A DNA stretch of 32,563 nucleotides from Propioniciclava sp. GTDB lineage: Bacteria; Actinomycetota; Actinomycetes; Propionibacteriales; Propionibacteriaceae. The notes under the pieces are model-generated. The model was not told where the DNA came from. It saw nothing but the letters and a program-made list of their open reading frames with translations, and did not search any database. The number at the start of each line of letters is the position of its first letter. The first letter of the stretch is position 1. Position numbers and translations under genes: made by a program. The stretch is from NCBI RefSeq assembly GCF_029977985.1, contig NZ_JARKOT010000039.1, positions 1-32,563 of the forward strand, read 5' to 3'. Below are positions 27,847 through 32,563 of this stretch, one piece after another.

Positions 27847-29190
27847 GTGACCGACACCACCACGCAGCCCGCCGCCAGCACCTCGTCCGCCCCGCGCACG
27901 GCGACCAAGACGTACGTCATCGACACGTCGGTGCTGCTCAGCGACCCCAACGCCCTGATGTACTTCGCCGAGCACGAGGTCGTCGTGCCCCTCGTCGTCA
28001 TCACCGAGTTGGAGGGCAAGCGTCACCACCCCGAACTCGGCTTCTTCGCCCGCAAGGCCCTCCGCTTCCTCGACGACCTCCGCGTCAGCTATGGGCGTCT
28101 GGACGCACCGGTGCCGGTCAACGACGCCGGCGGCCGCATCCACGTGGAGCTCAACCACACGGACGCCGACGTGCTGCCCGCCGGGTTCCGCCTCGGCGAC
28201 AACGACAGCCGCATTCTGGCCGTCGCCGCCAACTACGCCCACGAAGGTCGCGCCGTGGTGCTCGTCACGAAGGATCTGCCGCTGCGCGTCAAGGCCGCGT
28301 CGGTGGGTCTGGAGGCGGAGGAGTACCGCCACGAGTTGCCACCCGACTCCGGCTGGACCGGCGTGGCCCACGTCGACCTCGACCCCGAGGAGATGGACGC
28401 CCTCTACGACCACGGAGAGGTTCGGACGCCGCTGGTCGCCGACCTGCCCTGCCACACCGGGGTCGTCCTGCGCGGCGGCGGGTCGACCGCCCTCGCCCGC
28501 CTGCGGACGGACGGTGCGCTCCATCTCATCCGGGCAGATCGCGACGTCTTCGGCCTGCACGGGCGTTCCGCCGAGCAGCGGGTCGCCCTTGACCTGCTCA
28601 TGGACGCCGGCGTCGGCATCGTGTCCCTCGGCGGCCGCGCGGGCACCGGGAAGTCGGCGCTCGCCCTCGCGGCCGGCCTCGAGTCGGTGATGGAGCGCCG
28701 GCTGCACGACCGGGTCATCGTGTTCCGTCCGCTGTACGCCGTCGGTGGCCAGGAGCTCGGCTACCTGCCGGGAACCGAGAACGAGAAGATGTCGCCGTGG
28801 GGGCAGGCGGTGTTCGACACGCTCGGCTCGGTGGTGCACCGCGACGTGGTCGACGAGATCGTCGCGCGCGGCATGCTCGAAGTGCTGCCCCTCACCCACA
28901 TCCGCGGCCGCAGCCTGCACAACGCGTTCGTGATCGTCGACGAGGCGCAGTCGCTGGAGCGCAACGTGCTGCTCACCGTGCTCTCCCGCATCGGCCAGAA
29001 CAGCCGGGTGGTGCTCACCCACGACGTCGCCCAGCGCGACAACCTACGGGTCGGACGCCACGACGGCGTCGCCGCGGTGGTCGAAAAGCTGAAGGGCAAT
29101 CCGCTGTTCGGGCACGTCACGTTGACCCGGTCGGAGCGGTCGCCGATCGCGGCCCTCGTCACCGACCTGCTGGAGGACATCGGTTTCTGA
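27847..29190 (+). CDS. phoH2: PhoH2: PIN ribonuclease fused to PhoH ATPase/helicase
   Basis: A 447-residue two-domain protein. The N-terminal PIN domain (~22-165) has the acidic metal-binding set D26 (VIDTSVLL), E54 (ITELEG), D118/D120 (LGDNDSR) and D143 (TKDLPL). The C-terminal PhoH domain (~240-447) has Walker A GRAGTGKS (263-270), Walker B FVIVDEAQ (361-368) and the [10 protein letters not shown] motif. Mycobacterial PhoH2 unwinds and cuts RNA and is paired with a small antitoxin, PhoAT, just upstream; no convincing homologue is seen here. The GTG at 27847 has an SD (GAAGGA). Confidence 0.95.
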
Positions 29191-29997: not shown

Positions 29998-31377
29998 TCA
30001 GGGCTGCACGGAGACGTGCACGTGGTCGTAGTGGTTGGCCGTCACGGAGCCGCGATCCTCCATGAGGCGCCAGCCGCGGTCGGGATAGGCGGCGTTCCAG
30101 AGCTGCTGGCGGTAGATGATGTAGCTGATCTTGTAGGTCGCGGCGTTGTTCTGGAAGTAGTGGGCGATCTCCCAGCCGTAGTCCGCGTTCGCCGGAACGG
30201 ACCAGTCGGGAATCATGATGTCGACGGCGCGTCCGTTCGGGTGGTCGGAGCTGTAGTCGCTCGAGGCGCGCCAGCCGTAGATCGTGCGGATCTGGGTGAA
30301 GTTGGCCACGACGTAGTCGTACACCGCCTTCGCGTTCGGGGTGAGCTGGCTGATGCCGGAGCTTGTCACCGCGGCGTAGGCGACGGCGGTCGGCGCAGAG
30401 CTCGAGACGTAGGGCGAGTACACCCAGCGAGCCACCCCGTGATAGATGACCTGGGTGCGGTTGTTCTCCGTGACGCCCGTGGTGTCCAGGGCGGTGCCGC
30501 GGGACACCTGGCCGACGATGGCGCCGTCCGCCGCCGAGGTGGCGCGCACGTTGAGGAGGTTCACCGTGACGTACACCTTGCCGACGGCGGCCGGGGCGGC
30601 TGGCGCCGAGGGGCCGCTGGAGCCGACGGCGGTCGTGTAGCGGGTGGCGATCCAGCGGGTCTGGCCGCCGACGATGACCTCGGTGTAGTCGGCGGTGGTG
30701 TTGCCGGTGGTGTCGACGATCGACCCGGCCGGGAGCACACCGGTGTACGGGGCCGCGAGGTCGCCCTCCGTGCGCAAGTACAGGTTCGCCGTCGTCTTCA
30801 CCCTCCCGGCCGCGACCGGGCCGCTCGACGCGCTGCCGACGTTGAGGTAGCTCGTCGAGATCCAGCGGGCGACACCCGCGTAGATCACCTGGGTCCAGCC
30901 GCCGCTCACCGTGCCCGTAGTGCCGAGCGTCGTGCCCTTCGCCGCAACGCCGACGATGCCATAGGAGGTGCCGGGCCCGCTGCGGACGTTGACCGCCGCG
31001 GTGGTCGTGGCCTGGCCGGACGCCGTCGGTGCGGCCGTCGCCGGCGCGGCGGGGGTGGCGGACGTGGGAGCCGCCGCGGAGCCGGAGGAGGCGCGCAGGT
31101 ACGTCTGGTAGACCCAGCCAATGGTCCCCTTCGCGGTGGTGACCTGGTACCAGCCACCCGTGACCGTGCCCAATGCGGTGACCGTCTCGTCGGGGGCCAG
31201 GACGGAAACGACGCTGTAGCTCGTGCCGGGTCCGGAGCGCAGGTTGACGTAGGTCGTCGCGGTCATCGGCTGGGTGGCTGCAGCCGGGTTGGCGATCACG
31301 AGGCCGCCGACGCCCAGCGCCATCGATGTGATCAGGCTGCCGACAGCCAAGTTGAAAGGTCGTCCGGCTCGCTTCAC
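29998..31377 (-). CDS. secreted four-SH3b protein with LAS-type peptidase-like C-terminal domain
   Basis: A 459-residue exported protein. The signal peptide covers ~1-35 (basic MKRAGRP, hydrophobic core, ANPAAAT). Four bacterial SH3 domains follow at ~40-96, 123-180, 192-249 and 267-325 with NLRSGPGTSY/NVRSGPGTSY and W-[IV]-x-x-x-Y ends; the Ala/Pro/Ser linker after the first is the longest. The C-terminal domain (~343-459) has SDHPNGRAVDIMIPDW (H379, D386) and HYDHVHV (H452/H454), the metal-ligand layout of LAS/M15 peptidases and of the ARB_07466-like/VldE domain. It probably binds and perhaps cuts peptidoglycan. The GTG at 31377 has an SD-like GAGGGGA. Confidence 0.85.
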   Translation of the reverse strand: MKRAGRPFNLAVGSLITSMALGVGGLVIANPAAATQPMTATTYVNLRSGPGTSYSVVSVLAPDETVTALGTVTGGWYQVTTAKGTIGWVYQTYLRASSGSAAAPTSATPAAPATAAPTASGQATTTAAVNVRSGPGTSYGIVGVAAKGTTLGTTGTVSGGWTQVIYAGVARWISTSYLNVGSASSGPVAAGRVKTTANLYLRTEGDLAAPYTGVLPAGSIVDTTGNTTADYTEVIVGGQTRWIATRYTTAVGSSGPSAPAAPAAVGKVYVTVNLLNVRATSAADGAIVGQVSRGTALDTTGVTENNRTQVIYHGVARWVYSPYVSSSAPTAVAYAAVTSSGISQLTPNAKAVYDYVVANFTQIRTIYGWRASSDYSSDHPNGRAVDIMIPDWSVPANADYGWEIAHYFQNNAATYKISYIIYRQQLWNAAYPDRGWRLMEDRGSVTANHYDHVHVSVQP

Positions 31378-31678
31378 GGTGTCCCCTCGAGATCGTGATC
31401 CGGCACACCCCTGTCCGGACCTGAGAAGTATTAGACGTTCTCTCAGGGATGGTCGGCAATACGAAATGGGCAGCCAGTGGCGGGTGCGGCCCAGAGGGTG
31501 TGGCCGCCCTGGGGGAATAACACAGCTGTGATTTCTGGCGTTCACGAGGGCGTTCTCCCTTGTCGCGGCAGGTTGCGGGTGGGAGGGTGGGGCCGGTTGA
31601 TTTATCCGGGAAGATCATTATGCGGAAACGATTCACAGGAAAACCCGAAACGTGGGGTTGAGGGTTTCGAGTGGCTTC
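31378..31678 (-). promoter_or_regulatory. long upstream region of the SH3 gene with a 7-bp inverted repeat
   Basis: This ~300-bp gap has no supported gene. A perfect inverted repeat, CCTGAGA/TCTCAGG, lies at 31420-31426 and 31441-31447 around TCTAATACT (minus strand), about 45 bp before the start. It may frame the -10 region and serve as an operator. A second AT-rich spot (TAATGATC, near 31613-31620) could be another promoter. I looked for a c-di-AMP (ydaO) riboswitch, often found before cell-wall genes, and did not see its conserved core. Confidence 0.4.
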
Positions 31679-32338
31679 TCAGCCCTCGAGGACCACCCAC
31701 GACGTCTCGTCGTCGGCCAGCCACGTGGCGCAGGTGCCCCAGCACTCGGCGGGCAGCCAGCCGGAGTCCAGGTCCTCGCCGGGGACGAGTCGTCCACCGG
31801 TGAGGGCGACGGCGCGGCGGAGGGTCGTGCGCTCGGCGAGGATGACCGGGATCGTCTGGACCCGCCCGGTGGCGTGGTTCGCGCGCAGGGTGCCCAGGGC
31901 GGCGTCCGAGAATGCAGGGGCGACGAGGACGAGGGGCCTCTGATCGCGCCGGGCGTGGACGAGGGCCGGGAGGAGCCGACGGTCGGTGGTGAGCGCGGTG
32001 TCCGTGACGAGGACGAGGGGATGGTCGGCGGCCGCGCGCCCGCCGGTGAGGAAGGCCGCATCCGGGACGCCGCCGGGCAGGCTGGGTGCGTCGTCCGGCG
32101 GGTGGGGGACGGGGCTCGGCAGTGAGGAGGGTGATGCCGCCGGTGCGAGCTGGAGGTCGTCCTCGGTAACATAAGCGGGGGCGTCCGTGGCGACGAGACC
32201 CGGGATGGGGCGCACGGGAGGCTCACGCAAGGCGGCAGCGGCGCGCTGGTTGCGCCGGCGGTCGGACCACCAGCCGAACCACACCAGCGCCGTGCCGACC
32301 ACGAGGATCACGCCGATGCCCCACCACGGAGGAACCAT
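31679..32338 (-). CDS. membrane-anchored GroEL-apical-domain-like protein
   Basis: A 219-residue protein: one N-terminal TM helix (~6-24, GIGVILVVGTALVWFGWW), a basic stop (SDRRRNQR), a Pro-rich linker (~65-95) and a C-terminal domain (~106-205). That domain resembles the substrate-binding apical domain of GroEL: HPLVLVTDTALTTDRRLLPALV.. versus [22 protein letters not shown], then RPLVLVAPAFSDAALGTLRANHATGRVQ versus [28 protein letters not shown], and RAVALTGGRLV versus DIATLTGGTVI. No ATPase (equatorial) domain is present. The ATG at 32338 is 6 nt after TACGCT. The topology suggests that the domain is cytosolic. Function is unknown. Confidence 0.7.
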   Translation of the reverse strand: MVPPWWGIGVILVVGTALVWFGWWSDRRRNQRAAAALREPPVRPIPGLVATDAPAYVTEDDLQLAPAASPSSLPSPVPHPPDDAPSLPGGVPDAAFLTGGRAAADHPLVLVTDTALTTDRRLLPALVHARRDQRPLVLVAPAFSDAALGTLRANHATGRVQTIPVILAERTTLRRAVALTGGRLVPGEDLDSGWLPAECWGTCATWLADDETSWVVLEG

Positions 32339-32344
32339 GGCGCC

Positions 32345-32350
32345 AGCGTA
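32345..32350 (-). promoter_or_regulatory. -10 of leaderless GroEL-apical-like gene (TACGCT)
   Basis: TACGCT on the minus strand is 6 nt before the ATG at 32338. Confidence 0.6.
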
Positions 32351-32368
32351 GGTGGGCGCTCGCAGCGA

Positions 32369-32374
32369 TACACT
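32369..32374 (+). promoter_or_regulatory. -10 of tRNA-Lys (TACACT)
   Basis: TACACT ends 9 nt before the tRNA 5' end, fitting a start point one to three bases upstream of the mature tRNA. No strong -35 is visible. Confidence 0.6.
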
Positions 32375-32383
32375 CGGACGCCG

Positions 32384-32456
32384 GGGCCTATAGCTCAACT
32401 GGCAGAGCAGCGGACTTTTAATCCGCGGGTTCTGGGTTCGATTCCCAGTGGGCCCA
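32384..32456 (+). tRNA. tRNA-Lys (anticodon TTT)
   Basis: 73-nt tRNA. The acceptor GGGCCTA pairs with TGGGCCC (one T-G wobble), the anticodon stem GCGGA/TCCGC holds the loop CTTTTAA with anticodon TTT, and the T arm is CTGGG-TTCGATT-CCCAG. CCA is not encoded. It is divergent from the GroEL-apical-like gene. The 3' end plus following ACGAG is a common type of integration site, but no second copy is visible. Confidence 0.97.
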
Positions 32457-32563
32457 CGAGCAGAAAAACTCGAATGACTAGGTGTTTCGATCTCCCTCCT
32501 TGCGGGGCACTGCGTGGGCAGACCTGGGCCCAGGTACGAGGCTGGACAGCACGTGGATCGCGT
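32457..32563. other. region right of tRNA-Lys to the window end
   Basis: A weak 4-bp hairpin (CGAG at 32457-32460, CTCG at 32469-32472) and a 14-bp perfect palindrome, ACCTGGGCCCAGGT (32522-32535), are present. No gene can be supported before the window ends. Confidence 0.4.

Follow-up and report, generated by a model that had tools for sequence, protein, structure and literature searches.

In a 32,563-nucleotide (nt) stretch of the genome of Propioniciclava sp. (assembly GCF_029977985.1, contig NZ_JARKOT010000039.1; hereafter, the window), we find a gene whose product, the 219-amino-acid (aa) protein P0001, is a GroEL-type apical domain apparently tethered to the membrane. We regard this identity as practically certain, and an architecture of anchor plus apical domain without an ATPase is well supported. 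P0001 is homologous to GroEL yet is not a chaperonin, because the ATPase domain, the intermediate domain, and an apical loop of GroEL are all missing. Computation supports the homology, the predicted fold, and the architecture, as well as a family that forms one group apart from GroELs and occupies a common locus.

Used by itself as a query, P0001 matched solved GroEL apical domains in the PDB (best expect value [E], 5.2e-6) as well as the GroEL models of NCBIfam (best E, 1.2e-5). The family profile derives from 50 hits in the fetched loci, which yielded 42 nonredundant open reading frames (ORFs) and, once three close copies (L016, L020, L021) and one sequence with an unknown residue (L027) had been dropped, the 38 rows of alignment A1, where the window copy stands as P0001 and no row is a GroEL. 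Searched against all PDB sequences, this profile matched 92 distinct ones, the best 60 of which were chaperonins without exception (top E, 7.9e-24); the alignment places positions 75 to 220 of the profile on GroEL residues 183 to 335. As controls, 23 GroEL rows (that of Escherichia coli counted twice) scored 66.4 to 91.2 bits with the family profile, compared with maxima of 8.6 bits for shuffled sequences (4600 made, 3468 scored) and 1.0 bits for the 23 reversed GroEL rows, 21 of which were scored. Together, the single-sequence matches, the PDB matches of the profile, and the shuffle and reversal controls indicate that the resemblance of P0001 to GroEL exceeds chance.

Of the 38 A1 rows, 36 match an NCBIfam GroEL model at an E of ≤0.1 (best, 7.9e-16), and P0001 scores 21.4 bits with TIGR02348, far below the curated cutoff of 582.1. 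For P0001, Pfam gave nothing above cutoff, and PF00118 failed to match up to an E of 10; no Pfam family matched any of the 38 rows better than an E of 0.008, and Cpn60_TCP1 was absent at an E of ≤0.1, the row L044 matching it at 0.14, under the family cutoff. A DUF4381 match in 10 of the 38 rows (best E, 0.017) was set aside since it concerns the membrane end (residues 3 to 39 in P0001). For the three proteins tried, PHROGs returned a weak phage GroEL match only (best E, 1.6e-7 for L026 and 2.3e-4 for P0001) and PADLOC returned nothing. A preliminary description of the gene, made by a model from the DNA letters, had known of no named family of this kind, and indeed none of four family libraries describes a membrane-tethered apical protein.

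The predicted structure of P0001 adopts the GroEL apical fold, with residues 84 to 218 aligning with residues 192 to 335 of a GroEL apical fragment. None of the 50 fold matches listed was a PDB fold outside the GroEL/Hsp60 group, an absence that proves nothing. The preliminary description had staked its identification on a chaperonin hit in profile searches and on an apical fold, both of which were found. It had also aligned residues ∼106 to 205 block by block with GroEL residues ∼205 to 310. The homology and the pairing of LLP (122 to 124 with GroEL 233 to 235), ALGTL..N...G (147 to 158 with 258 to 269), and LTGG (179 to 182 with 295 to 298) hold; the numbering was somewhat off, and the homologous span is wider than it stated. 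Its two architectural claims, a missing equatorial domain and a transmembrane helix at the start, are borne out. The equatorial ATP-binding domain has no counterpart in the short chain, whose sequence match is limited to GroEL residues 183 to 336 or so. The intermediate domain likewise falls outside the match, and a transmembrane helix and linker take its place at the N terminus. Since the C terminus of P0001 coincides with the end of the apical core, neither domain can follow it. Finally, the apical loop 281 to 285, present in GroEL of E. coli and in both GroELs of the same Propioniciclava genome, is gapped in all 48 family rows (A1 and a further alignment, A5, merged, with copies removed; residue numbers at GroEL positions are those of E. 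coli GroEL).

The membrane anchor is a family trait. A hydrophobic N-terminal stretch occurs in 47 of the 48 rows, the remaining one (L064) being cut by a contig end; given this stretch, the whole chain would not be soluble, unlike the soluble monomer known as a minichaperone. Summed over the 48 rows, 6 lysines and arginines precede the helix versus 211 within 15 residues after it, so that the positive-inside rule predicts a position on the cytoplasmic face for the apical domain. Within the helix, a glycine at position 15 is nearly invariant in A1 and would suit helix packing.

We then consider the surface with which GroEL contacts its clients. According to PMC3268035, the client-binding residues of GroEL are A152, Y199, S201, Y203, F204, L234, L237, L259, and V263. 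In the groove between helices H and I, where GroEL receives clients and GroES, the family has mostly kept F204, L234, L237, and L259, a large hydrophobic residue being present in 45, 43, 46, and 46 of the 48 rows, respectively, and has lost Y203 and V263; the Y199 position is large and hydrophobic in 30 of 48. V264, which we take to be a client-binding residue of GroEL as well, is replaced by Ala in 34 rows and occupied by Val, Leu, or Ile in 14. Position 197, presumably a ring salt-bridge residue of GroEL, is Lys or Arg in none of the 48 rows and His in 6. At V263, where P0001 carries Arg, the client contact is poorer than the preliminary description would suggest. New conserved residues appear at GroEL positions 306 to 313, namely D189 (45/48), L190 (42/48), G193 (47/48), W or Y194 (44/48), and P196 (45/48); G201, found in 48/48, equals GroEL G318 and is common to GroEL. 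GroEL position 315 is described in PMC1885994 as lying on a flexible top-surface segment behind helix H and as cross-linking to a client.

Table 1. Features of the apical-domain gene and its surroundings, in positions of the window
Feature	Position	Strand	Remarks
Coding sequence of the membrane-tethered apical-domain protein (P0001)	31679..32338	-	ATG start, 219 aa plus stop
N-terminal transmembrane helix, residues 5 to about 24	32267..32326	-	Clear by sequence; helix 5 to 38 in the model
Basic juxtamembrane stretch DRRRNQR, residues 26 to 32	32243..32263	-	Positive-inside signal; D26 invariant in alignment A1
Linker, residues 33 to 80, proline-rich	32099..32242	-	Model confidence mostly low; all 17 rows of A5 have P54 and Y56
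Compact GroEL-apical-type domain, residues 81 to 219 (GroEL about 189 to 336)	31682..32098	-	Profile and model
Helix H equivalent, residues 119 to 132	31943..31984	-	L123 and L126 equal GroEL L234 and L237
Helix I equivalent, residues 145 to 157	31868..31906	-	L148 equals GroEL L259, R152 equals V263, A153 equals V264
Site of the missing GroEL loop 281 to 285, between residues 169 and 170	31829..31834	-	48/48 rows
Family-specific segment D189-L-x-x-G193-[WY]-x-P196...G201 (GroEL 306 to 318)	31736..31774	-	Conserved
tRNA-Lys(TTT)	32384..32457	+	Divergent; start codon of the apical gene about 46 nt away; frequent neighbor
SH3-repeat protein	29998..31545	-	Downstream neighbor; PF08239, E 3.4e-32; secreted by eye

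All genomes searched for relatives lie within the actinobacterial phylum and were sampled from the same family, order, class, and phylum. In the same family, 153 of 197 genomes match P0001 at an E of ≤1e-3. For five of these (G033, G044, G051, G057, G081), the match reaches only E values of 8e-5 to 7e-4, and the profile matches twice per genome, in all likelihood at the two GroELs. Removing them leaves about 148 of 197 genomes with a homologue, representing about 24 of 29 genera; a few of these matches are partial, that in G186 spanning only 42 residues. A first scan of genome contigs used P0001 by itself and yielded no relative from 173 candidate stretches; a second, run with five members of the family that are more distant, yielded 16 loci, from Micropruina, Tessaracoccus, Propionicicella, Desertihabitans, Aestuariimicrobium, Candidatus Avipropionibacterium, and unclassified Propionibacteriaceae. 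NCBI taxonomy assigns Tessaracoccus to the Propionibacteriaceae and lists Micropruina under Nocardioidaceae.

Further afield, in another family of the order, 72 of 149 genomes match, and the listed rows that cover the apical part lie in frames of at least 338 aa, which we take as GroEL; in a single row (G280), the match is confined to the N-terminal part. The class sample gave 92 matching genomes of 296, with whole-length matches only in the window's genome and in G018, of the same family; the others concern a GroEL-like part in frames of at least 360 aa or, in two cases (G927, G402), a short N-terminal segment. Among the matches listed for 396 phylum genomes, those outside the window's own genome cover only query residues 87 to 190 or thereabouts, as in GroELs, two listed rows reaching back to residues 28 to 30. 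Such single-sequence searches may miss distant members. With the profile, every one of 293 genomes matches because full GroELs match it too. The stand-alone apical family has so far been seen in one actinobacterial family only. A tree of 71 apical domains separates the 48 family rows from 23 GroEL rows by one fully supported branch of 1.14 changes per column; it was built by a quick method with no inferred root and does not resolve which GroEL was the ancestor of the family.

Regarding genomic context, we compared 31 loci, that is, 30 fetched ones and the window (L037/L056 and L052/L066 are same-genome pairs). An SH3 protein neighbors the apical gene in 29 of the 31; the window's copy has an unassigned C-terminal part that is peptidase-like by eye. 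A small zincin-like protein is nearby in 16 of the 31 loci. For these neighbors and the DUF202-like proteins below, Pfam was checked on examples. A tRNA-Lys was found in 19 of 30 scanned loci. In the 19 cases measured, which include the window and exclude L056, 16 of the tRNA genes are divergent; by distance, 12 lie within 300 nt and the other 7 lie 697 to 3916 nt away. A pair of DUF202-like membrane proteins is encoded downstream on the same strand in 8 of the 31 loci (7 genomes), closely so in 6 of the 8. The first of the two ORFs begins 1 to 18 nt behind the apical gene in L043, L044, L052, L059, and L066. In L041, the frame as called overlaps the end of the apical gene, and for L042 and L058 the DUF202 domain is found about 1 kb farther along. 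An apparent operon, in which the apical gene is followed after 1 to 10 nt by two mutually overlapping DUF202-like genes, is seen at L059:5986-7434, L066:5971-7326, and L052:5333-6688. No DUF202 genes were found beside the apical gene in the other 23 loci, window included. A mobile-element origin was set aside, neighbors being much alike in most loci. Within the window, a scan of positions 31500 to 32563 for promoters and terminators found none, and positions 27847 to 29190 (+) encode what by eye is an ordinary-looking PIN-PhoH type protein with a PIN-like N terminus and a P-loop ATPase.

The gene is kept widely but is dispensable. When 20 of the 44 genomes without a match were re-searched with the profile, no full stand-alone copy emerged; weak N-terminal matches in G026 and G013 were, by eye, other membrane proteins. 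Seven stretches were fetched. In G092 and G083, only 294 and 283 nt separate the tRNA-Lys from the SH3 ORF, and therefore there is no room for the apical gene. An arsenate-reductase-like ORF (by eye) occupies this interval in G022, and the distance between tRNA-Lys and SH3 ORF in G067 is about 3.3 kb. A case of gene decay is seen in G093, which shares its genus with the window: at L143:3200-4950, next to tRNA-Lys, what is left of the N- and C-terminal parts of the apical gene stands on either side of an ORF that by eye resembles a lactate dehydrogenase. Relatives of the SH3 protein stand near tRNA-Lys in genomes lacking the apical gene, too.

As to mechanism, we put at about even chances a model in which one transmembrane helix, a flexible linker, and a cytoplasmic GroEL-type apical domain make up an ATP-independent peptide-binding module at the membrane. 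Tethered through helix and linker, the apical domain would face the cytoplasm and still grip a peptide segment, because the hydrophobic core of the H/I groove is conserved; without an ATPase, binding and release would be governed by affinity alone, and the anchor would hold the bound protein at the membrane. The range of partners would be narrower than that of GroEL, because Y203 and V263 are lost and the 189-to-201 patch is gained. The holdase or adaptor role suggested by the preliminary description is a tentative part of its reading: the client groove keeps its hydrophobic core, but two contact positions are lost and a family-specific patch is new. A dedicated partner or an adaptor function is somewhat more likely than a general holdase because the contacts for general clients are kept in part and the new patch is nearly invariant. 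The cytoplasmic side, peptide binding, and membrane clients are all inferred. Tentatively, the family may represent a natural membrane-tethered minichaperone: a client-binding domain that left the ring a single time among the ancestors of one actinobacterial family, its binding face rebuilt behind helix H, and acting as an ATP-free binder of membrane or exported proteins, or of one dedicated partner, at the membrane surface.

Several observations weigh against a peptide-binding module at the membrane. The Y203 position is large and hydrophobic in just 2 of 48 rows, that of V263 in 5 and charged in 23 (Arg in P0001), and 5 rows have Thr, Gln, or Pro at L234. That L234, L237, and L259 are conserved may reflect the needs of folding and not those of binding. 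None of the usual neighbors (tRNA-Lys, SH3 protein, zincin, DUF202) is a chaperone gene, and the function is not essential, since some relatives lack the gene or carry it in decayed form. The lost contacts would also suit an exapted scaffold, whose apical fold is stable but whose groove no longer binds peptides, with function residing in the new patch (189 to 201, W206, W214) and the conserved linker (P54, Y56), one example being a membrane complex that includes the DUF202 proteins. The clustering of the nearly invariant new residues at GroEL 306 to 318 and the downstream DUF202-like pair in 8 of 31 loci speak for this idea. Nonetheless, we consider it rather unlikely: 43 to 46 of 48 rows keep a large hydrophobic residue at L234, L237, L259, and F204, all four listed as client-binding in GroEL (PMC3268035), and the 23 loci without DUF202 genes offer no such partner next door.

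The conserved groove core might instead serve the cell's own chaperonins, with the protein binding the mobile loop of GroES or competing for GroEL clients and so placing folding near the membrane. GroES uses the same H/I groove in GroEL (PMC1885994), and the genome encodes two GroELs (L001, L002), one of which, by eye, lies behind a GroES-like gene and has a His-rich tail, while the other has a GGM-type tail. Yet both are on contigs other than that of the apical gene, a charged residue frequently stands at the client contact V263 of GroEL, and a single apical domain would lack the avidity of a sevenfold ring, making this role improbable. A functionless, decaying remnant of a groEL duplication could account for fast evolution, as seen in the long branch between family and GroELs, and for loss in some genomes. 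However, open frame, transmembrane helix, D26, G193, P196, G201, and groove residues are kept over about 24 of 29 sampled genera, family-specific residues are nearly invariant, and neighbors are much alike. This conservation largely refutes decay, which we rate as very improbable.

Among known systems, Group I chaperonins (GroEL/Cpn60) have the homologous apical domain, with the same predicted fold over GroEL residues 190 to 336 or so and the helix H/I hydrophobics kept in part; the family differs in lacking equatorial ATPase, intermediate domain, and loop 281 to 285, in adding a membrane helix, and in its separate place in the tree. The chlamydial GroEL2 and GroEL3 (NF038370 and NF038369) are divergent GroEL relatives whose models match 19 and 32 of the 38 A1 rows, respectively, at an E of ≤0.1, but the GroEL3 model, with 506 positions, describes about a whole chaperonin and not a stand-alone apical domain. 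An apical-type domain outside a ring is known from PIKfyve, whose Fab1_TCP domain resembles the apical domain of CCT3 most (PMC2846930); it is of the CCT (Group II) kind and sits in a large eukaryotic lipid kinase, whereas P0001 is of the Group I kind and a small bacterial membrane protein. In function, an engineered construct comes closest. The minichaperone GroEL 191-345 and GrAD (Thermus thermophilus 190-333) are single chains of near-identical apical span (PMC9138447), and the isolated core of the former is present in P0001. These constructs are man-made and soluble and display the native client surface; the family protein is natural and membrane-tethered, with a partly changed client surface and a new patch. 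Among the open-license papers listed, we noticed none on a GroEL apical domain that occurs in nature by itself or tethered to a membrane. The phytoplasma marker of PMC13293309 may be a usual GroEL that was labeled automatically or a further protein of this sort, and members of the present family might bear the same label in databases.

As far as we found, the isolated apical domain has so far been a laboratory construct. A family that has kept no more than this domain, set on a membrane anchor, provides a natural test of what on the GroEL surface matters for binding as such and what for the ring only. It may also exert a chaperone activity at the bacterial membrane and serve as a scaffold for tools.
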